From: Pyrobaculum ferrireducens
GTDB taxonomy: Archaea; Thermoproteota; Thermoprotei; Thermoproteales; Thermoproteaceae
Assembly: GCF_000234805.1 (NCBI RefSeq)
Contig: NC_016645.1
Coordinates: 2,270,391-2,334,390 of the forward strand
DNA length: 64,000 nt
Reading direction: 5' to 3'
Part shown: in pieces, positions 44,723-64,000 of the stretch
How the letters are laid out: every line of letters begins with the position of its first letter
Numbering within the stretch: position 1 is the stretch's first letter
Program-made: the position numbers and the translations under genes
Notes under the pieces: model-generated
Database searches by the model: none
Told to the model about the DNA's origin: nothing
What the model saw: only the letters and a program-made list of their open reading frames with translations

Positions 44723-45315
44723 CGCCGTTCTAAGCGGCTTCGCCTCTCTGAGGCGACGCGCCACCTGGTGCCTCGGTGGAGTTGCACCTCGGCTCAAGAG
44801 TTTATAAAAAGAGGGAGCTTTCTAAACAGCCGCGTATAAGCTGTCTGTGCTTTCGTTCAGTTAAAGATCTAAAAAGCGGGACGTGGGCTATCAACATATC
44901 TGAGGCATATTCACGGCGTTGATATTAACGTCGTCAAAAGACTCCGGGTTTGCCCTCATTTGGCGGCGACGCGTGTGGAGGCGCCGATGCCGCCGGTTGC
45001 GCCTCGTCGCAGATATGCGCCGCGGCCATTCCCCGATGTGAGAAACTCCAGACTAAACCACCGCGCCTCCGCAGACCCACGGCCGTGAGCCGTATACGGC
45101 TGTGTACACAGTCCCTGCCGGGGCCCGTCGGCACCGCGACAGCCGCTGCAGTCCACCTTCCGCACAGGCCAGCGAGCCAGCCGCCGCATGTCGGCAGCCA
45201 CGCCTCTGCCCCCATGGAACAGCATTAACAACACGCCTGCAACGGACAGGCACCCTCTCTGTACACATAATATAGTAAGTTGAAATATTTATTACGTCTT
45301 ATATTACATGAAACC
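44723..45315. other. Gene-free stretch before the giant ATPase
   Basis: I see no gene here. GC-rich inverted repeats lie at 44735-44790 (GAGGCGACGCGCC, GGTGCCTC). A TATA-like GTTTATAAAAAG at 44799-44810 would start transcription near 44830, but only a five-codon frame follows. A TGTGAGAA at 45038-45045 resembles half of the 63-kb palindromes weakly. The TATA for the next gene is at about 45284-45296. Confidence 0.35.
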
Positions 45316-48300
45316 GTGGTTGTGGATTACTTTCAGCGCTTCAACGAAGAGTTGGTTAAGAAGTTGCTGGAGGGCTTCCCGTGGCGGGTTGTAGATGTGG
45401 TGGGCCCGCCCCGCTCCGGCAAGTCGTACTTTATAGAAAACTACTCGTCGAAGCTGAGGGAGGCCGGCCGCGACGTTGAGCTAAGAGAGCGGACGGCGAC
45501 TAGCAGGGACGAGCTGGGCGAGGCCTATGCAGGCGGGGGGCCGTATAGGCTTGTTTACTGCATCCCGTGGGATCGCGCAAAGGATTACGCCAGCGACGAC
45601 GCAAAGAGGGCTGTCGAGCTAATCAAACGGCATTTTACGCCGGTGGAGTACCTCGGCGTTGGGTACATGCCGCCCGGCTTCGCGGCTGAGGTAGTGAAGA
45701 GGATGAGGGAAAGCGACGAGGAGGCCGCCGTGAAGTACCTGGAGGAGCAACGGGAGGCCTACAAAAAATTCTCCACGCTACTGGCGCCAGATGTCTGGGA
45801 TAGGGTGCGTGAGGTATTGAAGAGAGTCGGCGGCGCCGCCTTGAGGGATGCGGTGCCGTTTTTGACAAAGGCGTTGCATATCGACGTCGTCTCCCATGTT
45901 TCTAAATTCGCCCCCCTCGTTTTTAAATTTCTGGATCTGATAGCGGCCGTCATAAAGGTCTTCGGTAAAAACTGGATTACGCAGTGGATAGAGCAGAGGG
46001 AGCAATGGAAAGGGTTGCACGAAGATCTGCGGAAGGTGCTTGTGTGGAAAGCCGCCGCGGCGCTGGGAAGAAGCGGAGAAGAGGTGGAGAAGGCGCTGGA
46101 CGCGCTCTACGGATTAGACACAGCGATGCTGGATGAGGTGGTGGAGAAAATCGAGGAGAAGCTGGCCGAGCTGGAGGCCAGAGTCTCAGTGCTTGAAGCA
46201 AAGCTTGGGCCCCTCAACGCCGTCTACACAGAGCCGGAGGAGCTAGGCGTGGAGCGCAGAGACGGCGTCTTGTACGTAATGGGCGAGCCCTACGTAGACC
46301 CGGCGCGGCACGGCCTAGCACAAGCCGTGGATGAGGTGGAGAGGAAGGTGCGGGAGGTTGTGGAGAGGGGCGGCGTCCTAGCCATAGTCGGTCCAAGAGG
46401 AGTCGGCAAGTCCACGCTGGTCAGAGCCGTGCTGGCGGAGGTTTTGAGAAGGGCGGCGGTTAGAGGCGTGATAAACGTAAATAGGCTGAAGCTTGACGAT
46501 CTGCCAGAGGTGGTGGATGGAGCGGGCCGTAGCTATCTCCTGTTCTACGACCCCACAACCCCTAGGTTCTACGAGCTGGGCGGTCTTGAAAAGCCACTGG
46601 AAAGGCCAAGGCCTGAGGCCGTTGGTATAGTGGCTGACCTCGTTAACTTGACGCACCGCGGGGGGAAGCCAAGAGCCTCCGTTGTTTTGGTACTGCCGAC
46701 AGACATCTACAACGCGCTGGGCGAGGAGGTGAAGAGGCTCATAGTCCCCGTCGTTCTTGATTTGAAGAGCGTTGAATTCCTCGCCGAGGTAATAAGGCGG
46801 TACTCCGGCTGTCGGCTTGAGGGAGAGGGGCTGAGGGCACTAGCCGGGGAGATTGCGAAATTCGACGAGGGCTACACCCTAGTCGCCAGGCTAGTCGGCG
46901 AGGAGCTGAGCAGGCGGGGATGCCGGCTTGAGAAGGTAGAGGAGGTGGTGAGGGCGGCCGGGGGGAGGGCGCTTAGGTTTATGCTTATCTACGTCAACCA
47001 GATGTTGAGAGTTAGGTGGAGGGGTCCCTCCGGCACGTACGAAGACGAGGATATGGCTGAGATTTTTTCACAAATTCTGGCGGCGAGGCGATACTATAGC
47101 CGAGATCTTGGCCCGGGGAACGCGGTTGCGCCGCCGCTTCTCTTGGAGAGGTGGGCTAGGTGGAGATGCGCCAAGTTGTTTAAAAGCGAGAGGTGTCCCA
47201 GAGAGCCCCTACCCAAGGAGGTGTACATTTGGCTCTCCCGGAGACAACACGATCTGATAGAAACAGCGTTGTTTCTAGCCGCATATGCAAATCTGTTAGA
47301 AGAAGCGGCTGTAGAAGACATCCGTAAAGTGGTTAAAGACGCAGGTGAGGAGCTGGGAATTTGGAAAAAGGCGAAGACAAGCCCCTACACCGCTGTCCAC
47401 TTTCTTGCGGAATACGGCTCCGATTTAGAAAAAGAGTGGGAAGGGGCTCTCTGCCTGGAGAAATTCGCGTTAATGCTCGGCGCCGCCATCGCTGGTCACC
47501 CGTATAAACCATTAGCCAAGGAGGCGGAGAAGGCTAAAGAGTACCTAGGGGACACCGCCGAGAGGATAAGGAGGTGGTGTGTGATAGACGGCTACCTGCT
47601 GGCCGACGGCGAGCTGACGCCGCTCACCCGCGAGCTTCTACTGGCAATGGCCGCATTGGGCAAGATGCCGAAGCCCTTCGCCAGCCAGCACGGCAAAGCG
47701 CTGGAAGAGGCGGAAAAGCTGGTAGAGGCGTGGAGGGGGAGAGGCGGTGCCAGATGGTGGGAGCTTTTCTACGGCCTTGGCTTGGCCGTGATGGCAACGA
47801 GGGCGGGGGTGTTGGATAGAAAGGCGGCCGTAAAGGCGCTGGCGGCAGCTCAGCCAGCTGTACAACGGGTTGCATCTCCGATCGCTATTGGTGTTATTCT
47901 TAACGCGCTTTCGCCGCTGAGAGAACACGCGCCGGATATGTGGACCACCGTGCTTTACGCCGCGGCTACGCTGTCGGTAGATGAGCCGCCAGCCCTGGCC
48001 AAGCGTATTTTAGAAGAGGTTAAGTGGGCCAAGGAGCGGGTGGTGGAAGACTGGGCGAAGGCGCTACTCGCCGCCGCCTACGCAACGGTTCTTATTCAAT
48101 CTGCAGAGGCTACGAAATTACACGGAGATGTCTGTCAGCTTCTAGGCGGCATTCAAGACCCGGATTTGAGAATTCTGGTGGAGGTCGACGCGCTTCGGCG
48201 CTTTGCTGCGAGAGGCCTCCCGCCGTGCGGCGTCGACTTGTGTACGGGAGAGGCGAGGGAGGACTGCGTAGAGTCTCTGGAGAAGGCGTTTGAAAAGAAG

Positions 48301-49497
48301 GTAGGCGAACTGTCGTCAAAACTGGCTGAGCTGAGTAAAAAGGCGGAGAGAGGCGAGCTGAGCCCGGAGCTGGAGAAATACCTAGCCATCCGATCTCTAG
48401 AGAGGCCGCAGGAGGCGCTTCAGAGGGCGTTGTCAGTGGCCGAGGTCATGCTGTACTACAGCCTCGCGGAGGTCAAGCTAGACGCCGGCAGGCTAGAGGA
48501 AGCTGAGGAATACTTCGCCAAGGCGGCTGAGCTCGACAAAAAGTTGAGGTGGTGGGAAAACTACCTAGTCCACTCTTCTTATGCCGCTAGAGCCCGCGTG
48601 TTGAAAGCCGGCGATCTCGACGTGGTTGTAAAGTTAGCCGAGGCTTTTGAAAAGCTGTGGAAAGAGGCGAGGGAGCTCATGGCGCCGACGGCCGAGATGT
48701 TGAGGACCGCTTCTTTTAGGTTGGCTGAGTATCTTGTCTACCTGGCGGCTTCCGGCAGAATGAAAGAGGCGGCTGAAGTGTTGAGAGAGCACGGCTGGTT
48801 GCTGAGATATGAAAACTATGTACACGTCGCCACCCTATACATGTTGAGTCTACTTGGCGTTGGGGCGGAGGCGCCAGACACCAAGGAGCTGTTAGAGGCG
48901 CTGGAGGGCCGCATCCATCCGCTTCTCAAGCCGGCCCTGGCGGCTTTGCTGGGCCTTCCGCCAAAGCCCATAAAAGCGATGTTGCTGTGTGCTGAAGCCA
49001 CCGGAGCGTCTATAAGCGCGGTTAAAGAGGGAGAGGTTAAAGCGGAAATTGATTTATCTCAACTTATGGAACACGCTGATTATCTCGCGTTTTGTCGCGA
49101 CGCGTACAAAGCTGTTATGGGCGACATGGAGGCATTTAACCGAATACGTATACGTGTAAAAGAGTGGTATAAGGAGAGATTGGAGCCCCCCTCTGTACTG
49201 GATCGGCTTGACGCCGGGGGGCTGGTACAGGTGCTGGCACCTAGTGGCTCACTCGGCCGGCTTATTCTTCTGCTTATGGCTCTTGACGAGGCTAGACACG
49301 CCAAAGGCGTAGAGCGGGAGAGGTACCGCGAGCTGGCGCGGGCACACGCGCTGGTAGGCAAGGACGCCCATAAGGGGACTATAGCCGGAACGCTTTTCGG
49401 CAAAGCGGCCAAGGCGGTTGAGAATTGCAAAGGCGAGGTGGACAAATGCGGCGACTTGAAGCTGGCGTTACTCAAACTCTACTACTACCACTTCTAG
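45316..49497 (+). CDS. Giant two-P-loop ATPase with TPR-like C-terminus
   Basis: The protein has about 1393 residues. The first P-loop is at residues 30-37 (GPPRSGKS). A coiled coil follows near residues 280-300 (LAELEARVSVLEAKLG), then a second P-loop at about 357-365 (GPRGVGKST), with YLLFYDPTTP as a likely Walker B and VVLVLPTD as a sensor strand. The C-terminal 600 residues are helical repeats (LAEVKLDAGRLEEAEEYFAK). This layout is that of STAND-type NTPases used as sensors in regulation or antiviral defence. The GTG at 45316 is 26 bp after ATATTTATTA; a TTG at 45280 would overlap that promoter. Confidence 0.7.
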   Translation: MVVDYFQRFNEELVKKLLEGFPWRVVDVVGPPRSGKSYFIENYSSKLREAGRDVELRERTATSRDELGEAYAGGGPYRLVYCIPWDRAKDYASDDAKRAVELIKRHFTPVEYLGVGYMPPGFAAEVVKRMRESDEEAAVKYLEEQREAYKKFSTLLAPDVWDRVREVLKRVGGAALRDAVPFLTKALHIDVVSHVSKFAPLVFKFLDLIAAVIKVFGKNWITQWIEQREQWKGLHEDLRKVLVWKAAAALGRSGEEVEKALDALYGLDTAMLDEVVEKIEEKLAELEARVSVLEAKLGPLNAVYTEPEELGVERRDGVLYVMGEPYVDPARHGLAQAVDEVERKVREVVERGGVLAIVGPRGVGKSTLVRAVLAEVLRRAAVRGVINVNRLKLDDLPEVVDGAGRSYLLFYDPTTPRFYELGGLEKPLERPRPEAVGIVADLVNLTHRGGKPRASVVLVLPTDIYNALGEEVKRLIVPVVLDLKSVEFLAEVIRRYSGCRLEGEGLRALAGEIAKFDEGYTLVARLVGEELSRRGCRLEKVEEVVRAAGGRALRFMLIYVNQMLRVRWRGPSGTYEDEDMAEIFSQILAARRYYSRDLGPGNAVAPPLLLERWARWRCAKLFKSERCPREPLPKEVYIWLSRRQHDLIETALFLAAYANLLEEAAVEDIRKVVKDAGEELGIWKKAKTSPYTAVHFLAEYGSDLEKEWEGALCLEKFALMLGAAIAGHPYKPLAKEAEKAKEYLGDTAERIRRWCVIDGYLLADGELTPLTRELLLAMAALGKMPKPFASQHGKALEEAEKLVEAWRGRGGARWWELFYGLGLAVMATRAGVLDRKAAVKALAAAQPAVQRVASPIAIGVILNALSPLREHAPDMWTTVLYAAATLSVDEPPALAKRILEEVKWAKERVVEDWAKALLAAAYATVLIQSAEATKLHGDVCQLLGGIQDPDLRILVEVDALRRFAARGLPPCGVDLCTGEAREDCVESLEKAFEKKVGELSSKLAELSKKAERGELSPELEKYLAIRSLERPQEALQRALSVAEVMLYYSLAEVKLDAGRLEEAEEYFAKAAELDKKLRWWENYLVHSSYAARARVLKAGDLDVVVKLAEAFEKLWKEARELMAPTAEMLRTASFRLAEYLVYLAASGRMKEAAEVLREHGWLLRYENYVHVATLYMLSLLGVGAEAPDTKELLEALEGRIHPLLKPALAALLGLPPKPIKAMLLCAEATGASISAVKEGEVKAEIDLSQLMEHADYLAFCRDAYKAVMGDMEAFNRIRIRVKEWYKERLEPPSVLDRLDAGGLVQVLAPSGSLGRLILLLMALDEARHAKGVERERYRELARAHALVGKDAHKGTIAGTLFGKAAKAVENCKGEVDKCGDLKLALLKLYYYHF

Positions 49498-51831: not shown

Positions 51832-51967
51832 TTCTACCATCACTATTTGCTACAGTTAGAAATAGAGGCAGGTAGAGCTGGCTGAAAATTATTATGCCTG
51901 TATTAAGGAAGATAAAATTGCAGTACATCTGTGTGATGTTTATCCCTCCCTTTTGCAAGACTTGGTT

Positions 51968-52276
51968 ATGTACGCTGTTGGGTGGGTTGAGGTCTACTCG
52001 CCGGTGGGGGAGCTCATCCGCTACAGGTTGATTAGGAGGTTGATGAGAGGCCCGGCCGCGGCTGGCGAGCTAGAGGCTCTGGCTAGAGAGGCCGTTAGAT
52101 GCGCAGGCCTCCGCTACGACTGGCGGGTTTGGCCACAGCTAGTGAGGCGCGAGGCCGCGGCGCTGGAAGGCGTATACACGCTTACAGACTACGGCAGGAT
52201 GGTAGGCGAGGCGCTGGAAGAAGTGGAGAGGTACCTGACAAGGTTTTTCCCCCCAACCTGTCTAGAGGCCACATGA
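51968..52276 (+). CDS. Hypothetical winged-helix-like protein
   Basis: This is a 102-residue helical protein (VGELIRYRLIRRLMRGPAAA, LEGVYTLTDYGRMVGEAL), with the look of a small winged-helix domain. A TATA near 51941 fits the ATG at 51968; the frame extends back to 51953. The TGA overlaps the ParA-like ATG, so it could act as the partner or regulator in a ParA-type pair. Confidence 0.55.
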   Translation: MYAVGWVEVYSPVGELIRYRLIRRLMRGPAAAGELEALAREAVRCAGLRYDWRVWPQLVRREAAALEGVYTLTDYGRMVGEALEEVERYLTRFFPPTCLEAT

Positions 52277-52770
52277 CAAAAACCGTGGCCGTGATAGGGC
52301 CCCTGGGCGCGGGGAAGACTTTTATCGCCACCTCCCTCGCCCTCTACCTGCACCTAGCCTCGGCGCGTGCCGTCTTTATCGACGCGGCGGATAAGACCGG
52401 GGCTAGGTTGCTGAAGGGGGTTGTCCCCCTCGCCGCCGACGTCTCAGAGGCTAGGGAGATGAAGGCCAAATACGCCGTCGTGGACACCTCGATATTCGAC
52501 ACGCCTAGGGCAGACAAGTACGTAGCAGTCCTTGAGCCTGCCGATTTGAGACATGTCGACGTGGAGTCGCTGGAGAGGAGGGGCTACTACATCGTCGTGA
52601 ACAAAGCCGGCGCGCTTTCGGCCTGGGCCAGGGGGTGGATACCCTTCGTGAGAGAGGTTGCGTGGAGCTACCAACGCGGCGTGCACCCGCTGCTCTGCGG
52701 AAGCCCCCCACTGGAGCGATTCCGCAGAAGAATAGGCAAAATCCTCAAGCAGATAGCCCAGTGGCTATGA
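52273..52770 (+). CDS. ParA/MinD-like P-loop ATPase
   Basis: This 165-residue protein has a Walker A motif at residues 9-16 (GPLGAGKT), a strand with an aspartate (RAVFIDAADKTG), a second strand (KYAVVDTSIFDTP) and a late VVNKAGALSAWA segment like the NKxD region of SIMIBI GTPases. It is shorter than typical ParA. A partition or positioning role is likely. The ATG overlaps the stop upstream, and the TGA overlaps the next ATG. Confidence 0.65.
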   Translation: MTKTVAVIGPLGAGKTFIATSLALYLHLASARAVFIDAADKTGARLLKGVVPLAADVSEAREMKAKYAVVDTSIFDTPRADKYVAVLEPADLRHVDVESLERRGYYIVVNKAGALSAWARGWIPFVREVAWSYQRGVHPLLCGSPPLERFRRRIGKILKQIAQWL

Positions 52771-53168: not shown

Positions 53169-53491
53169 AAGAGCTGGAGGCCTTGCTGAAGAGAGAACGC
53201 ACAGCCAAGGAGGCGCCGCCGCCTCCGCCTGGGTGGCGCCCGAGGCTGGCTGAATTCGCCACGGTGTGGAGAGAACTTGGGGTTAAGCCCCTCTACCCAG
53301 AGCTCTACGACATGGCGGTTAAGACCTGCAGAGACTGGATGAAGTGCTACGCCATGTTTATCGCCGTCTGGGAGACGCCGCACAAGTGGTTGCTGTTTGA
53401 AGCCGCCATGGCCGGGCTAGACACCGAGATGGTGGCGAGGCTTATACTAGAGGGAAGAATAGACGAGGCTAGGAGGCTGGTGGAGCCGTGA
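53165..53491 (+). CDS. Hypothetical protein, paralogue B
   Basis: This is a 108-residue protein with a short charged N-terminus, a PPPPPG linker and a helical domain with TVWRELGVKPLYPELYDMAV and a final LILEGRIDEARRLVEP. It matches paralogue A along the whole domain, including the two cysteines before the last helices. The genes are coupled by ATGA overlaps on both sides. Confidence 0.65.
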   Translation: MKELEALLKRERTAKEAPPPPPGWRPRLAEFATVWRELGVKPLYPELYDMAVKTCRDWMKCYAMFIAVWETPHKWLLFEAAMAGLDTEMVARLILEGRIDEARRLVEP

Positions 53492-55452
53492 ACTACTACG
53501 ACAAGACCCTTGCGCTGTTCGGCTTGTCGCTGTTGGCGATTGCCATTATGGCCAAGGCGTATCCGCCTCTGGCCCTTCTGGCGGTTTTTCCAATACTGGC
53601 GTGGGGGGAGGAGGTGTTGGTGTGGGTTCACACAAGGGTTGCCCCTCTGGAGCCTGTTAGGGTGCTCTACGAGGAGCCGGGCGTCAAGGCGGCTTTCGAC
53701 CCCCGCCGCGGGCTGTACCACGTCTTCTGGCGCGCCGAGCCTATACACTCGGTATACGGCATATCCGCCGCCCCCAGGCTCCACGAGATGTACGCAAAGC
53801 TGTCGCTGAGGAGGGGGGAGTGGGTGACGTACTTCGTCTGGGGAGACCGCAAATACATACGCTACACCGCGAGGCGGCTGACCCCGGAGAGGCTTAGGCA
53901 GGTGGAGCTAATCCTCAAAGAGTACTACGTCCTCGACAAGGCGGAGCCCTGGCTCTCCAGCAGAAAGCAGCCGGGGAGGTGGCCCTACCTAACCGCCCTT
54001 TTGTTCATCCCCCTGGCCTTGATTTCAAGCGGCTGGTTTCTGCTGGCGATACCGCTGTGGCTGTTTGTCTATAGACGGGTTAGGAGGTGGTACAGAGTGC
54101 CGTACCTCCTCCTCTCTCTGTCGCACGTCTCCCGGGCCTCCTCCCTCCCGGCGTCTCGGGAGATGCTGGAGGCCATGGCGTCTGCGGAGGCCGCCGCCTT
54201 CGGCATGATGGAGAAGTGGGCGGTGGCGTTTACGGACATGCCCCCAGAGGCGGTCCACAAGAAGTTCGTCAAGGTGTACGAGGGGAGGGACACCGGTAAG
54301 AGGCTCATCCGCATAAGGGAGCTCTCCGAATTCGTGGAGAGGATGGCTAGGTACAACGAGAGGCCCATCCTCCTCTACCCATACGGCTCCAAGGACCTCC
54401 ACTCCATCTACATGACGCAGGACTGGATAGCCACATACGACTTCTGGACGTTGAGAAACGGCGTCAGGGCGCTTTCGCACGACCTCTCCCGCTTCCCCAT
54501 GTTCTACGGGGGGAAGCTCCTGGCGGTGGGTAGGGAGGTGGTGCTGGCCTACGACAGATTCGGCAGGCCGGTCTCCGTCGACCTAGACGCCCTCCCCACC
54601 GTCCACGGCGTCGTGATCGGCGCCTCCGGCCTCGGCAAGTCCTGGACTGTGGGCAGCTGGCTCGGGGTCTTGGCAGAGGCCGGGGTCGACGTCGTGGTGG
54701 TGGACCCCCACGGAGACTACCTCAAGTGGGCCGCGCTGTATGGGGCGCAGGTGGTGGAGGTGCCGGAGGAGCTTCCGTCGGACATGCCGGAGGTGCTGGC
54801 CAAGTCTATGTGGTTTAGGAGGCTGGCGGGGGAGTACGGGCTGGATGCGGGGGAGAACGCAGAGGCCGTTAAGGCGGTGCTGGAGAGGATGGCCTCTCTG
54901 GCCGGCTACAGCCCCCGCTTCGTGGACGTGGGCGGGAGGCACGTGGTCTTCAGTGTGTACAAGGCTAGGAAAGACGCGGCGCTGCAGGCCTTCTTCTACG
55001 GAGTTTTGCTGGTGTACCTCCTCGCAAAGCACATAGACGAGAGGGTGGAGAGGGTGAGGACCGTCATTGTCTTTGACGAGGCTAGGCTGATCTCTAAGAG
55101 GGGCGTGCCGGGCTACTCCACCCTCTCTTCTATGCTTGAGGAGATTGTGATGGGTGGTAGGAAGTACGGGCTGGCCATTTGGTTTGTCCTTCAGTTGGAG
55201 ACTCAGCTGGAGCATGACTTGTTGCGGAGCGCCTCTGTACAGCTTCTCTTCGGCGGGGGCGAGGACGTGGTGAAGCCGCTTGCCCACGTCCTCTACCTAG
55301 ACGACGCCGACGCCGCCTACCTTCTGACCACAGTCACGCCGAGGGAGGCCTCGCTGTCGGGACAGCCCTACGCCATGGCCGTCATGCGCATAAAACCCCG
55401 CAACTTGAAATACCACGTCAAAATACCCCTAGACCCGCGGCTGAAGGCATGA
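53488..55452 (+). CDS. Membrane-anchored VirB4/HerA-like ATPase
   Basis: The protein has 654 residues. Two hydrophobic hairpins near residues 8-37 and 165-195 anchor it in the membrane. The ATPase domain has Walker A at 378-385 (GASGLGKS), followed by VVVVDPHGDYLKWA, and Walker B near 525-532 (TVIVFDEARLISKRG). This combination of membrane segments with a FtsK/HerA/VirB4 ATPase is found in DNA-transfer and type IV secretion motors, including CedB of the crenarchaeal DNA-import system and its Thermoproteales counterpart. It could drive DNA or pilus-subunit transfer here. Confidence 0.75.
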   Translation: MNYYDKTLALFGLSLLAIAIMAKAYPPLALLAVFPILAWGEEVLVWVHTRVAPLEPVRVLYEEPGVKAAFDPRRGLYHVFWRAEPIHSVYGISAAPRLHEMYAKLSLRRGEWVTYFVWGDRKYIRYTARRLTPERLRQVELILKEYYVLDKAEPWLSSRKQPGRWPYLTALLFIPLALISSGWFLLAIPLWLFVYRRVRRWYRVPYLLLSLSHVSRASSLPASREMLEAMASAEAAAFGMMEKWAVAFTDMPPEAVHKKFVKVYEGRDTGKRLIRIRELSEFVERMARYNERPILLYPYGSKDLHSIYMTQDWIATYDFWTLRNGVRALSHDLSRFPMFYGGKLLAVGREVVLAYDRFGRPVSVDLDALPTVHGVVIGASGLGKSWTVGSWLGVLAEAGVDVVVVDPHGDYLKWAALYGAQVVEVPEELPSDMPEVLAKSMWFRRLAGEYGLDAGENAEAVKAVLERMASLAGYSPRFVDVGGRHVVFSVYKARKDAALQAFFYGVLLVYLLAKHIDERVERVRTVIVFDEARLISKRGVPGYSTLSSMLEEIVMGGRKYGLAIWFVLQLETQLEHDLLRSASVQLLFGGGEDVVKPLAHVLYLDDADAAYLLTTVTPREASLSGQPYAMAVMRIKPRNLKYHVKIPLDPRLKA

Positions 55453-56257: not shown

Positions 56258-57030
56258 TGCTGGAGATTGTAATAGGCGGCCTTGCAGAGCCGCCTGAGGC
56301 GAAAACAAGGTACACCTTCTGCCCCTCGGAGAGGGCAACCGGCTTGGGCTTCGAGCTTACTGCAGAGGGCTCCCTTGTCTTTACAACAGTCTTCCTTAGA
56401 AACAACAACCCTCCCCTCTACCCGAGGCACACCGCCGAGCTGGCTCAGTGCAGCGCCCCTCTATGCGCCCTCTTCCGCTACGTGGACTACGGAGAGTTGC
56501 AGAGGGGGGAGGGCGTATTTCAATACAGAGCACCTCCCGTCGACCCCGTCCTCTTGGCGATGGGCCTCGCCTTGGCTTTCCACCTCGACGCCTCGGCCGA
56601 GGGCTGGGCTGTCGAGGTGTATACAGACGTCTGGCCTATGTACACAGACCTGCTGGCCATGGCAAAGCCCCTCTCCGGCGTACTGCGCATCTACACCTCT
56701 GTCTACGACCCCAAGGCGGCTGTCGCCGATAGGGTTGTCCTCGCTGTCCAGGGCTTGACGTACGAGGGGCTGGCGATGAAGAAGGCCTGGGCCGGCGGTA
56801 GGCTGTGCAGAGCGTACACGCCTCCGCCAGCCGCCGAGGTGGAGGACCCCGACGTCAAGGATTTGCTACGCACTCTGTGGGAGGCTGGGGGCTTCCTATC
56901 GCTGAAATACGCCCAGGAGAAGTACGGCCAGGCTGTAATCAAAGCCTCTCAGCTAGGCCTAGTGAGGCTAGACGCGCTGACGCTGACGGTGAGGCTCACG
57001 GACCTGGGGATTAGGGCGCTGGGCGTATGA
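56257..57030 (+). CDS. Hypothetical protein with C-terminal HTH-like end
   Basis: This is a 257-residue protein. The first 180 residues are mixed strands and helices (VLLAMGLALAFHLDASAEGW). The last 70 resemble a winged helix (LLRTLWEAGGFLSLKYAQEK, QLGLVRLDALTLTVRLTDLG). I chose the ATG at 56257, which overlaps the preceding stop; the frame is open back to 56077. Function unknown. Confidence 0.5.
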   Translation: MLEIVIGGLAEPPEAKTRYTFCPSERATGLGFELTAEGSLVFTTVFLRNNNPPLYPRHTAELAQCSAPLCALFRYVDYGELQRGEGVFQYRAPPVDPVLLAMGLALAFHLDASAEGWAVEVYTDVWPMYTDLLAMAKPLSGVLRIYTSVYDPKAAVADRVVLAVQGLTYEGLAMKKAWAGGRLCRAYTPPPAAEVEDPDVKDLLRTLWEAGGFLSLKYAQEKYGQAVIKASQLGLVRLDALTLTVRLTDLGIRALGV

Positions 57031-57954
57031 CCCTCCATACCCAGCTCTTCAGGCTGGTGGTGGCCGTGGAGGGGAATGCGCTAATCACGGGGCTCCCCGG
57101 CACTGGCAAGACCTCCCTCGTCAAGTGGTCTCTCCGCGAGGTCCCCAGCGACTACGCCGTCGTTGTATACGACACAGCCGGCGACTTCCAGCAACGCGGC
57201 CTCTGCAACTACGTGGGGAGGTTTTCGGTAAACCCCCTCGACCTCCCCACGCCGCGCGTTGTTGAGATTTTGGAGGAGTCTTTAGCGGCCACGTACGGCG
57301 AGTACCCCTATCTGCTGACTCCCGCGATGGCGGAACTGCTACACAGAACTGTGGAGAGGGGGGCGCGCACCCTATCGCAGGTGAGGCGCGAGGTTTTGAA
57401 CATAGCCGAGCCGCACGAGATGGACACAGCCTACGCCCTGCGTAGGCGTCTAGTCCACTTCGACGTTGCGCAGTTCGACAAGACGGACGTACCCATCCGG
57501 CACGGAGCCTCGACCTGCGTCGACGTCTCGGGGGCTGGATAGAGTGGGTAGGCTGGCCTACGTGCTGGCGCATCTAGAGCTCACCAGAGACTTGAAGAAC
57601 GTCATCTACGTCGTGGACGAGGCACACCGATTCCTGGCATTCACGTCGAGGTACTCCCTCCTCACTGACCACTTGAGGACTGGGAGAAGCCGCGGCCGCT
57701 TCTTCGTCCTAGTGTCGCACTCCTACCGGGAGTTTCTACGACACGTCGGCTACGTCAAGATGGTTGTGAGATTCCCAGACTGGGACCTAGACGAGTCTAA
57801 AACAACGCCGCTACAGCCCTCCGAGGCGCTTATAACGGTTAGAGCCGCCTCTCTCCGCTCGGCGGAGGCGTTGGCTAAGCTGTTGCCTCTACGCGGCACA
57901 TGGGCCCAGTTCCGAATAACCGTGCCGCCGTATGTCGACAGATCCCCTGCGTAG
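57027..57954 (+). pseudogene. P-loop ATPase (HerA/AAA-like), frameshifted
   Basis: The first frame has Walker A at residues 22-29 (GLPGTGKT) and a strand YAVVVYDTAGDF, and ends at a TAG at 57540. The other frame continues with DRVGRLAYVLAHLELTRDLK and Walker B VIYVVDEAHRFLAF to 57954. The break lies in a GGGGG run near 57530-57535; with four G's the text reads CVDVSGLDRVGRLAY. The intact protein would be about 308 residues. It is a second motor-type ATPase in the cluster. Either an assembly error or a recent lesion. Confidence 0.7.
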
Positions 57955-58516
57955 AGCCGTGGAGGCGCTCAGGGCGGACTTCCCAGGCAAGTCGAGGAGC
58001 TGGATTAAGAGGGCCCTCCTAAGGCTCGGCGACGTGCGTGAAGTTAGAGAGGACCTCTACGTGGTTGAGGGGAGGCGTGAGCTGGGGGATTGGAGGCCTC
58101 TTTACCAGGTCTGGTGGTCGGAGGCTGAAAAGCGCTGGCTCTGCACATGCTACTACACGCAGTTCGGCCTCAGGCGCAGGAGGGACATTTGCACACACGT
58201 AGCCGCCGTCATGCTCTTCCGCAGGTACAAGAGGGCTTTGGAGAAGGCCGAGAGGACGACGGTCTACGTTGCCGAGGCTGTGGTGGAGTGCCGGGGGCGC
58301 ATATCGGCGAGTGGAGAGGTGTACCTCAGGCCAGACGCCGACAGAGCGGATCTCACCTTCTACACATCCCCCCGCTTCAGAGTATTGGTGATCTCTAGGC
58401 AGAGGCGTATTGCGGTTAAATGCGGCGGCTATGTGGTTTACGAGGCGGAGGGGGAGGGGGTGCCCCTCGCCGTGGCGAAGTTCCTCGTCGCAAAATTCCA
58501 TGAGGGTGAGGACTAG
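57932..58516 (+). CDS. SWIM zinc-finger protein
   Basis: This is a 194-residue protein. Near residues 71-92 is a SWIM motif (CTCYYTQFGLRRRRDICTHV) of the form CxC-x(n)-CxH, used to bind nucleic acid or proteins. The first 50 residues are basic and helical, and the C-terminus is beta-rich. It overlaps the frameshifted ATPase gene and the PIN-like gene. It may be a DNA-binding part of the cluster. Confidence 0.65.
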   Translation: MSTDPLRRAVEALRADFPGKSRSWIKRALLRLGDVREVREDLYVVEGRRELGDWRPLYQVWWSEAEKRWLCTCYYTQFGLRRRRDICTHVAAVMLFRRYKRALEKAERTTVYVAEAVVECRGRISASGEVYLRPDADRADLTFYTSPRFRVLVISRQRRIAVKCGGYVVYEAEGEGVPLAVAKFLVAKFHEGED

Positions 58517-61764: not shown

Positions 61765-61964
61765 CTCAGCTGTAGCGGCTACCAAACCTGTCTTTCTGAA
61801 TAAGACAAGCCTAGTCGCAACGTAAATGTCTGTATACTGCAGTTGTCAAAACATCTAGGTTGTCTTACGAGTTAGTCTAGAGAAGAGCTATTAAGCCGCC
61901 TTGGCGTACTTCACGGTGGAGGCGAAGTTAGAAGATTTTTTCCAGGGAGGAGGTGAAGAAGGCA
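61765..61964. other. Intergenic region before the RadA paralogue
   Basis: No gene is visible. A short inverted repeat (GTCTT / AAGAC around 61785) could be a terminator hairpin. A strong ribosome-binding sequence (GGGAGGAGGTG) at 61945-61955 precedes the next ATG. Confidence 0.35.
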
Positions 61965-62897
61965 ATGCCTAGGAGGGCAGAGGCTCCCGAGGAGTGCCAG
62001 CAGTACAGGGGGCCTAAGAGAGACGACGTGCTCAAGCTCTGCGCGGAGCTGGGCGGGCTGAGACATTTAGCGGTTAAGAACGTGGTGGAGCTGGCCCAGC
62101 TCCTCGAGCTGGAGGACGACCTTGAGAAGGCCGAGGAGGTACTCGCCGCTGTTAGGAGAGCCGCCGGCGTGGGGGCGAGGGTTGTGCCGGTGTCGGAGGC
62201 CGTTAAGTCATATGCCGTGGCTGAGGTGTTGAAGACTCATGTGAGCGAATTTGACGAGAAGACGCCTTGGGGCGGCCTGCGCTTCGGCTACATCTACGGG
62301 CTGGCTGGCGAGTACGGGGCGGGGAAGTCCATGTTCGCCATACAGGCATCGGTACTGGCGGCCCTCGCCGGCAAGCGCGTTGTCTATATCGACACCGAGG
62401 GGGCGCTGAACCTCTCCCTCTTCGAGAAAGTCGCCAAGAGATTCGGCTCCGACCTCACCGCGCTGTCTGACAGGCTACACATAACCCAGGTGATAGATCC
62501 CATCGATCTGAAGGAGGTTCTGCTGTCGCTTAGGGGCGTCGACGTTGTCGTTGTGGACTCCATGGTGTCTCACGCCCTGCGCGCCCAGTTTAGGGGTAGA
62601 GAAAGGCTGGCCGCCCGTCAGCAGTTGCTGGCCTACTTCCTTGACGTTCTGAGGAGGATGGCCGCCGTCTACGGCACCCTGTCTATACTGACGGATCAAG
62701 TCATCGACGTGCCGGACTTCTTCAGTAGCAAGAGGCCCGCGGGAGGCAACGTCTTGCTTCACGGGGTCCACGCGCTGTTTCTCATGAGGAGGCCTAACAA
62801 GCAGAAGGCTGAGGGCGTGATGATCCCGCTGGACGTGCCGGGGATGGCTCCCACAGTCGAGATTCGCTACGAGATTCGAGATGACGGCCTCTACTAG
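61965..62897 (+). CDS. RadA/RecA paralogue
   Basis: This is a recombinase of about 310 residues related to RadA. A helical N-terminus is followed by Walker A at residues 115-122 (GEYGAGKS), VVYIDTEGALNLS, Walker B near 196 (VVVVDSMVSHALR) and the RadA-type segment FRGRERLAARQQLLAYFLDV. It may support recombination or act as a Rad55-like mediator. I chose the ATG at 61965 with a strong Shine-Dalgarno; a GTG at 61953 is possible. The palindrome array starts at the stop codon. Confidence 0.75.
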   Translation: MPRRAEAPEECQQYRGPKRDDVLKLCAELGGLRHLAVKNVVELAQLLELEDDLEKAEEVLAAVRRAAGVGARVVPVSEAVKSYAVAEVLKTHVSEFDEKTPWGGLRFGYIYGLAGEYGAGKSMFAIQASVLAALAGKRVVYIDTEGALNLSLFEKVAKRFGSDLTALSDRLHITQVIDPIDLKEVLLSLRGVDVVVVDSMVSHALRAQFRGRERLAARQQLLAYFLDVLRRMAAVYGTLSILTDQVIDVPDFFSSKRPAGGNVLLHGVHALFLMRRPNKQKAEGVMIPLDVPGMAPTVEIRYEIRDDGLY

Positions 62898-63150
62898 TTC
62901 TCACTCGGCGTCTCCCCGCCGGGTTTTTCGGTTTGTGAGAACGGCGTGTCGACTGCAATACGCCGTTCCTCACACGCCGTCTCGGAGGCGGGTTCTCCGC
63001 TGTGTGAGAACTAGCGTCTGGCTCCGCGGCGCGGCGTTCTCACCCGGCGCCTCTTCGCCGGATTTCTCGGCTTGTGAGAACAGGCGTTTGAAAAACGGCG
63101 CCGCGTTCTCATCCCCCGTCTCTACGCCGAGCCTCTCGCTGTATGAGAAC
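62897..63150. repeat. Array of four 46-bp palindromic units
   Basis: Units lie at 62897-62942, 62965-63011, 63036-63081 and 63105-63150. Each begins GTTCTCA (GTTCCTCA in the second) and ends TGAGAAC, with a GC-rich core containing a CGGCGTCTC-like and a GCCGG-TTTCTCGG-like block. Spacers are 22-24 bp, and the sequence across them is palindromic too: the first carries GGCGT / ACGCC. Half-sites thus alternate in direction at steps of about 46 and 23 bp. The regularity suggests a protein-binding array such as an origin, partition or transfer site. It is not a CRISPR array because the units differ and spacers are too short. Confidence 0.8.
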
Positions 63151-63192: not shown

Positions 63193-63534
63193 ATGTCCTA
63201 CGCGTCTGTGGCTAGGGGCGTGGTGGGGGGTGTGTCTGTCTACGTCTGGCGCCGCGGCGACTCTCTCTACGCCACTCTCTACTACGGCGGGAGGAAGAGG
63301 ACAGTATACCTCGGCAGGTGGGAGCCCAGAGAAGCCTCAAACAAAGAGGGGGACTGCGTGGAGAAGCTGAGGGCCGTGCTGAGGGAGGTGGCTTGCCTCG
63401 TGGAGCTGGCCAGAAGAGCGAGGAACTCCGTGAGAGACCCCCTCGCCGCGGAGGCCCTTGGAGAGTGGGCCTACCCGCCTAAGGTGGTGAGAGACGCTCT
63501 GGAGGAGTTTGAAGTGACGTGTGGAGAGGTTTAA
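63193..63534 (+). CDS. Hypothetical protein next to the palindrome array
   Basis: This is a 113-residue protein with a short strand-rich N-terminus (VSVYVWRRGDSLYATLYYGG, RKRTVYLGRWEP) and a helical C-terminus (EKLRAVLREVACLVELARRA). The N-terminal part resembles a small DNA-binding sheet as in some recombinases, which is only suggestive. The ATG lies 43 bp after the last palindrome and no TATA is obvious. Confidence 0.5.
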   Translation: MSYASVARGVVGGVSVYVWRRGDSLYATLYYGGRKRTVYLGRWEPREASNKEGDCVEKLRAVLREVACLVELARRARNSVRDPLAAEALGEWAYPPKVVRDALEEFEVTCGEV

Positions 63535-63554
63535 AATCGGAGGTATTTCTGTAC

Positions 63555-64000
63555 GTGGTCTGCGGCCTCTTAAAGCGGATGTTCCGCCTCGCGGGCCTCC
63601 CGGAGGAGGAGGCCGAGGCTAGGGCTAGGTGGGTGGTGAGAGAGCTGGCGTCGAGGCACCCCAACTGCCGCCTCCTCTGCGACGACCTGCGGCGGGTGTA
63701 CAGAGATCTGTCTTCTTACGAGGTGTACGAGATGTGTAGACAGCGCCATCTGGACCAGGTGGCGCAGTCCGCCGACTGCACGGAGCCGATCGCCAAGTCG
63801 GAGCGCTGCGCCCCGCTTCCCATGGCCTCGCCTAGACGCGTCTACTACCCACGCTACATCTTGACAGACAGGACTAGGGTGGCGGAGGCCGTGGCTCTGG
63901 TGAAGGCAATCACGCTGAGGTTCTACCAAAGATTTCAAGAGTTTAGGACTGGGGGGAGGAGGAGGGATGTGGAGGCCTACGTCTACGCCCTCGTGGAGCC
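63555..64000 (+). CDS. Hypothetical protein, truncated by the window end
   Basis: A GTG at 63555, about 24 bp after a TATA element (AGGTTTAAAATC), opens a frame that stays open to the end of the window (at least 148 codons). The product begins VCGLLKRMFRLAGLPEEEAE and contains several cysteines (NCRLLCDD, EMCRQRH, DCTEP, RCAPL). No family is recognised. Confidence 0.55.
   Translation, partial: MVCGLLKRMFRLAGLPEEEAEARARWVVRELASRHPNCRLLCDDLRRVYRDLSSYEVYEMCRQRHLDQVAQSADCTEPIAKSERCAPLPMASPRRVYYPRYILTDRTRVAEAVALVKAITLRFYQRFQEFRTGGRRRDVEAYVYALVE

Follow-up and report, generated by a model that had tools for sequence, protein, structure and literature searches.

Near the right end of a 64,000-nucleotide stretch of the Pyrobaculum ferrireducens genome (hereafter the window), between the stop codon of a gene for a RadA paralogue and a gene for a 113-residue protein (p113), lies an array of four palindromes of 46 to 47 bp each (62897-63150). 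Unit 1 (62897-62942) is a 46-bp palindrome of the form GTTCTCA-N32-TGAGAAC, which in the genome matches the covariance model described below with E=6.9e-9; units 3 (63036-63081) and 4 (63105-63150) are also 46-bp palindromes. Unit 2 (62965-63011) measures 47 bp, pairs the left arm GTTCCTCA, with one extra C, with the right arm TGAGAAC, and keeps CA-N32-TG. The bounds GTTCTCA and TGAGAAC given in the preliminary description therefore apply as exact 7-mers to seven of the eight half-sites and fail only at this left arm. Units start 69, 70 and 69 bp apart, are 70-84% identical to unit 1, and alternate with three linkers (62943-62964, 63012-63035 and 63082-63104; 22, 24 and 23 bp); neither units nor linkers are assigned a strand. 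The same description had taken the spacers as palindromic, which holds for the first (GGCGT...ACGCC), the sole clear inverted repeat among the window linkers; in another cluster copy elsewhere in the genome (L042), the spacers are not palindromic. The pattern GTTCTCA-N28-34-TGAGAAC was matched three times in the window and in none of 100 dinucleotide shuffles, and these three sites are the only ones in the whole 2,467,972-bp genome; coordinates and shuffle control together confirm the four palindromes and their repeat of about 69 bp. The array overlaps the RadA-paralogue stop codon (TAG, 62895-62897) by one base and ends 42 bp before the start of the p113 ORF (63193), in agreement with the gene arrangement first described. 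It does not resemble a CRISPR array, as its units are palindromic and diverge from the first to the extent given above, and no cas gene was found among the scanned neighbours.

On sequence grounds, the gene cluster around the array is a Ted (Thermoproteales exchange of DNA) system, probably used by these heat-loving archaea to pass DNA between cells. A profile of six pilins, built from the cluster pilin (L004:6091-6642) and its relatives, matches TedC (PDB 8dft) with E=2.8e-16. The genes for the TedA-like, TedB-like, HerA-like, SWIM-motif, 317-aa, 168-aa and RadA proteins are syntenic with the Ted locus of a second genome, G010 (L074; C1:708000-727900), which we take to be probably that of P. 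calidifontis, the species with solved TedC pili. Identity to that locus is 30% for the TedA-like and 31% for the TedB-like protein, and the order is the same, with TedA (VirB6-like) downstream and TedB upstream of the pilin. On the plus strand, the window encodes a small P-loop ATPase, possibly ParA/VirC1-like by a weak match (52273-52770; NCBIfam ParA_partition, E=0.021), a TedB-like membrane ATPase of VirB4/HerA type (53488-55452; Pfam DUF87, E=1.9e-10, in addition to the identity and synteny just given), the HerA-like ATPase of the Ted locus (57027-57954), a SWIM-motif protein that is a conserved Ted-locus marker (57932-58516) and the RadA/Rad51-family paralogue of 314 residues (61953-62897; Pfam Rad51, E=6.7e-21; NCBIfam RadA, E=3e-33, below the equivalog cut-off), which is about 51% identical to the probable host RadA of the genome. 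These are followed by p113 (63193-63534) and the start of a 326-aa protein with no assigned function (63519-64000), which runs past the window end and precedes TedC and TedA. Searches of Pfam, PHROGs and NCBIfam did not support the winged-helix protein proposed at 51968.

The HerA-like gene is split by a frameshift, one extra G in a G run near 57530, which six other Pyrobaculum copies and the G010 gene read through. A conserved programmed frameshift was rejected because the extra G occurs in the window copy only; it reflects either a sequencing error or decay to a pseudogene, and on this evidence the window copy of the cluster may be inactive. Cluster copies align between about 45.5 kb and about 80.4 kb (window-extended), and their right end abuts the triosephosphate isomerase gene (tpi). 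At the cluster ends, neither an integrase nor a tRNA target was found and flanking direct repeats did not exceed chance; an integrated conjugative element with att sites was set aside for want of the tRNA and the repeats.

Several other features of the cluster were recorded. A 1,405-aa NTPase with TPR-like stretches and a weak PADLOC mad8 match (45280-49497) is found at the left end of each of the three copies in the genome. Behind tedA lies a 4,642-aa frame whose N-terminal part is of membrane type (L004:7496 to L005:5424; 66496-80424 window-extended); four full-length relatives of this giant protein start in the genome, one of them an orphan at 1.204-1.217 Mb, and its C-terminal module, which has a Pfam PaRep2b match, recurs as copies and broken pieces at about 20 places. 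The stretch VLGDGTVRANE... in this module is possibly reminiscent of a LAGLIDADG motif. Upstream of tedC, 44-bp palindromes of the form GTTTTTCC...GGAAAAAC were judged to be chance pairing between promoter-like sequence and the first pilin codons. In P. oguniense, the pilin gene is preceded by a second, AT-rich repeat region with the motifs GTTCTTGG and AAGAGGAA (L020:11520-11780).

We searched 61 genomes for the array, namely, the genome itself (G000) and 60 relatives, among them P. oguniense TE7 (G002) and a third Pyrobaculum (G003). Arrays with the window arms and exact 46-bp units were found only in these three genomes of one genus, and none was found in the 58 other relatives. When the same 61 genomes were searched with a covariance model built from the units (46 positions, 8 pairs), strong matches appeared in the same three only, with single weak matches in two further genomes (E 0.008 and 0.05). 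The P. oguniense array also lies directly after radA (L020:10603-10855), and in G003 arrays follow radA at five loci (L022, L023, L024, L046 and L047), two of them at contig ends; two G003 contigs break in or beside array copies (L023:1 and L024:10451), as expected for a multi-copy repeat. The window genome holds two more copies of the cluster. Copy 2 (L042/L043, spanning the record start) has four units with the arms GTTTACA/TGTAAAC in exact 69-bp phase, and copy 3 (L044) has one full unit and remnants. At a second P. oguniense locus (L021) and at the Ted loci of G010 and G014, the RadA paralogue is present and both array and p113 are absent. With G010 being probably P. calidifontis, its array-free locus suggests that Ted pili do not require the array.

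Comparison of the arrays revealed that their geometry is kept while their letters are replaced. Every full unit at the ten radA-linked array loci has the form CA-N32-TG, and the linkers between these frames span 33-36 nt, their length varying because in units of the GTTCCTCA type the inserted C falls outside CA/TG. Three arm pairs were seen, GTTCTCA/TGAGAAC, GTTCCTCA/TGAGGAAC and GTTTACA/TGTAAAC, and the arms covary between arrays and even within them. In an alignment of 26 units, changes on both sides were found in six of ten arm pairs (27 cells versus 10.5 in shuffles), and the covariation score was 0.312 versus at most 0.119 with partners slid, values to be read knowing that some GTTTACA units were found by palindrome search, of which the 69-bp phase of copy 2 is independent. 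Arm pairing is kept more than arm letters. The earlier proposal that fixed protein contacts keep the arms was thus too strong, arm changes being compensatory; as to the observation that cores differ while arms are kept, the arms covary and the cores carry conserved CG boxes. Specifically, most units have CG symmetrically at positions 13-14 and 33-34, with a CGSCG centre at 21-25. The corresponding pattern with free arms, GTTNNCA-N5-CG-N18-CG-N5-TGNNAAC, was found at 14 places in 3 of 19 family genomes, all array-bearing, and its reversed control gave no match in the same 19.

The letters themselves have changed considerably. The copy 2 array is 64.1% identical to the window array, against a mean of 64.4% and a maximum of 70.2% for shuffled sequence; in the 300 bp of radA next to it, by contrast, the two copies share 84% identity. 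Cores of orthologous units diverge by 0.18-0.32 per site, near or slightly under the divergence of radA third positions (0.26-0.32), and arms diverge less (0.07-0.20). Furthermore, at least two copy 2 units fit the window core profile better when reversed, which points to a DNA site rather than an RNA, because DNA tolerates such flips and RNA does not. The array is a clean case of a DNA site in which spacing and symmetry are kept and letters are replaced.

Units also occur outside the Ted arrays, as a pair at 439 kb and a single unit at 1.217 Mb in G000, one unit at 35 kb of C2 in G003, and several at 489, 686 and 693 kb in G002. About 250 bp separate the 1.217-Mb unit from the orphan copy (a 4,633-aa frame) of the giant gene, which lies downstream of it, and the 439-kb and 35-kb units are followed downstream by fragments of the giant gene C-terminal module. 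The G002 set at 489 kb (L019:5540-6060) is an irregular mix of GTTTACA and GTTCTCA units with no adjoining radA or p113, and only one neighbour within 7 kb matches the cluster. The repeats would have to be scattered widely without a link to the cluster to count as ordinary intergenic repeats, and the distribution mostly favours the preliminary description on this point: tandem arrays occur only at radA-p113 junctions of Ted clusters, plus the irregular P. oguniense array, and the few single or paired units lie mostly near giant-ORF modules, other Ted-derived genes or a Ted locus. Recombination signals that shuffle the giant surface-protein gene found no support, as, of 27 module matches (about 20 places in G000), few outside the clusters have a nearby unit, and most of these modules have none. 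Two-unit GTTTACA pattern matches in viral contigs proved to be AT-rich sequence without CG boxes.

At about ten loci, array and p113 either both occur or are both missing, counts that are not independent because the copies are related. Intact p113 genes were found in three genomes, the same three as the arrays, and only where the array is intact; G039 has one weak p113 frame with an internal stop. In copy 3, where the array has decayed, no p113 lies behind it. This copy also holds a weakly p113-like 129-aa ORF on the opposite strand (L044:18833-19222, minus), beside an apparent CRISPR array. On contig C2 of G003, array (92%) and p113 (93% at the nucleotide level) are kept together and the next gene has only 42% protein identity, and in copy 2 array and p113 have both diverged at 94% protein identity in RadA. 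How closely the p113 proteins are related does not follow the type of arm: the protein of P. oguniense, whose array has GTTCTCA arms, is closer to that of copy 2 (GTTTACA arms) than to that of the window. An AlphaFold2 model of p113 from six sequences (pLDDT 78, pTM 0.49) predicts four strands and three helices, a beta4-alpha3 arrangement without significant match to solved or viral folds. No convincing family or fold match was found in Pfam, PHROGs, NCBIfam or the PDB, and neither a ParB nor a ParR type was recognised; a resemblance to the phage-integrase arm domain gained no support from the fold search. By eye, no TATA-like stretch precedes p113, which suggests that the array is probably not its promoter. 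That p113 binds the array is slightly more likely than not.

The rigid core with free letters, the alternating symmetric half-sites, the CG boxes and the orientation flips all point to duplex DNA recognised by a protein. Each unit would be a two-fold symmetric binding site in which arm, N5, CG, the CGSCG centre, CG, N5 and arm follow at fixed internal spacing, and four such units in 69-bp phase could support the higher-order assembly of a small cognate protein, most likely the downstream-encoded p113. The complex of p113 and array would then dock DNA at the Ted apparatus or begin its processing for transfer. We tentatively favour, at a little under an even chance, a cis-acting nucleoprotein-assembly site of the Ted DNA-exchange cluster that acts at the DNA level in docking or starting transfer; that its role is docking or transfer initiation and not regulation is a possibility we hold slightly more cautiously. 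Docking or transfer initiation is the likeliest role, given that the cluster transports DNA and nothing marks it as a replicon. Of the replication, partition or transfer site initially suggested, the protein-binding site in cis thus remains the best guess, with transfer favoured by the Ted context and replication or partition made less likely by the lack of integrase, tRNA and flanking repeats and by the right end abutting tpi.

The main rival is an operator: by binding to the palindromes, p113 (or the small protein at 51953) would control the radA-p113 transcript or the pilin genes further downstream. Autoregulation typically uses symmetric sites next to a small gene, p113 adjoins the array and is inherited with it, and the sites of SegB and AspA likewise lie upstream of their own genes (PMC5120986). 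However, the array follows the radA stop with no visible TATA-like element ahead of p113, four 46-bp sites across 250 bp are large for an operator, and the pilin gene lies about 2 kb away with promoter-like sequence of its own; overall, we consider regulation unlikely, if the most serious alternative.

A neutral repeat, whose functionless palindromes would be kept by template-switch correction and unequal exchange, could account for the homogenised arms and the decayed single copies, and quasi-palindrome correction also yields arm covariation. Such processes do not readily explain a fixed CA-N32-TG in arrays of otherwise unrelated sequence, the conserved CG boxes, the fixed genomic position or the co-occurrence with p113, and this origin appears improbable. 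A role of the array as structured RNA within the radA-p113 transcript, such as hairpins controlling p113 translation or removed by processing, is very improbable. The arms covary, two of the three arrays have RNA folding energies far below those of their shuffles (z -6.1 and -9.0), and gonococcal parAB is under stem-loop control (PMC8716806), but the third array reaches only z -2.9, consensus folding yields the arm stem only, loop length is fixed in every unit although hairpins do not need that, and some units fit the core grammar better reversed. To a similarly low chance we assign a centromere or replication-origin array of an excising, replicating mobile element, for which the multi-copy cluster, the possible ParA-like ATPase, the iteron-like periodicity and the 23-bp palindromic centromere used by pNOB8 AspA (PMC5120986) would speak, since the copies are chromosomal with a right end at tpi, and the stretches that were checked yielded neither a Rep protein nor an integrase, a tRNA or terminal direct repeats.

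Arrays of iterons and parC centromeres are regularly phased, repeated binding sites, and integron attC sites are palindromes bounded by GTT...AAC in which pairing is conserved above sequence. The array shares the regular phasing of the former and differs in its long palindromes and exchangeable arms; no ParR was recognised nearby, and no replication initiator gene was found among the scanned neighbours. With attC sites it shares the bounds and the precedence of pairing over letters, but its units have a fixed length and no cassettes, do not appear to fit the attC core consensus, and are accompanied by no integron integrase among the scanned proteins. In Crenarchaeota, the AspA-ParB-ParA system of pNOB8 and the SegAB system of Saccharolobus similarly have palindromic sites by the gene of a small dimeric binder (PMC5120986). 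AspA, however, is a winged helix on one 23-bp palindrome and SegB uses two sites (PMC5120986), compared with four 46-bp palindromes and a predicted beta4-alpha3 protein here. The Ted clusters as defined in PMC9905601, where HerA- and ParA-like genes are reported at these loci, have a similar order of TedC-like pilin, TedA-like channel, TedB-like and HerA-like ATPases and possible ParA-like ATPase; no description of the repeat array, p113 or the RadA paralogue was found in the searched text of that study.

Precedent for docking comes from bacteria, where VirC1/VirC2 with overdrive, ParR with parC, and ParAB mark DNA for type IV secretion. In VirC1/VirC2-overdrive, ParM/ParR of R1 and gonococcal ParA/ParB, DNA reaches a type IV machine via a specific site with the help of a partition-type ATPase and a DNA-binding protein (PMC8716806). 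Unlike in these systems, no relaxase or nick site was recognised here, p113 is no recognised ParB or VirC2, and the sequences are unrelated. A further version of the transfer reading makes the array an oriT-like site, on whose four palindromes a 'transferosome' without relaxase would be assembled from p113, the RadA paralogue and the possible ParA-like ATPase; we regard this as decidedly unlikely. To our knowledge, such a transfer-initiation site would be the first described for a crenarchaeal DNA-exchange system. No relaxase was found among the scanned cluster proteins, which cover part of the ORFs, and no nick site was recognised; archaeal conjugative plasmids are noted to lack recognisable relaxases (PMC9905601).

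The same study names 'the generation of ssDNA substrates' by Ced and Ted, that is, how DNA is chosen and prepared, as an open question (PMC9905601). Under the favoured reading of the array as a docking or transfer-initiation site, array and p113 would offer a small testable system, consisting of one 113-residue protein and one 250-bp DNA beside a RadA paralogue.
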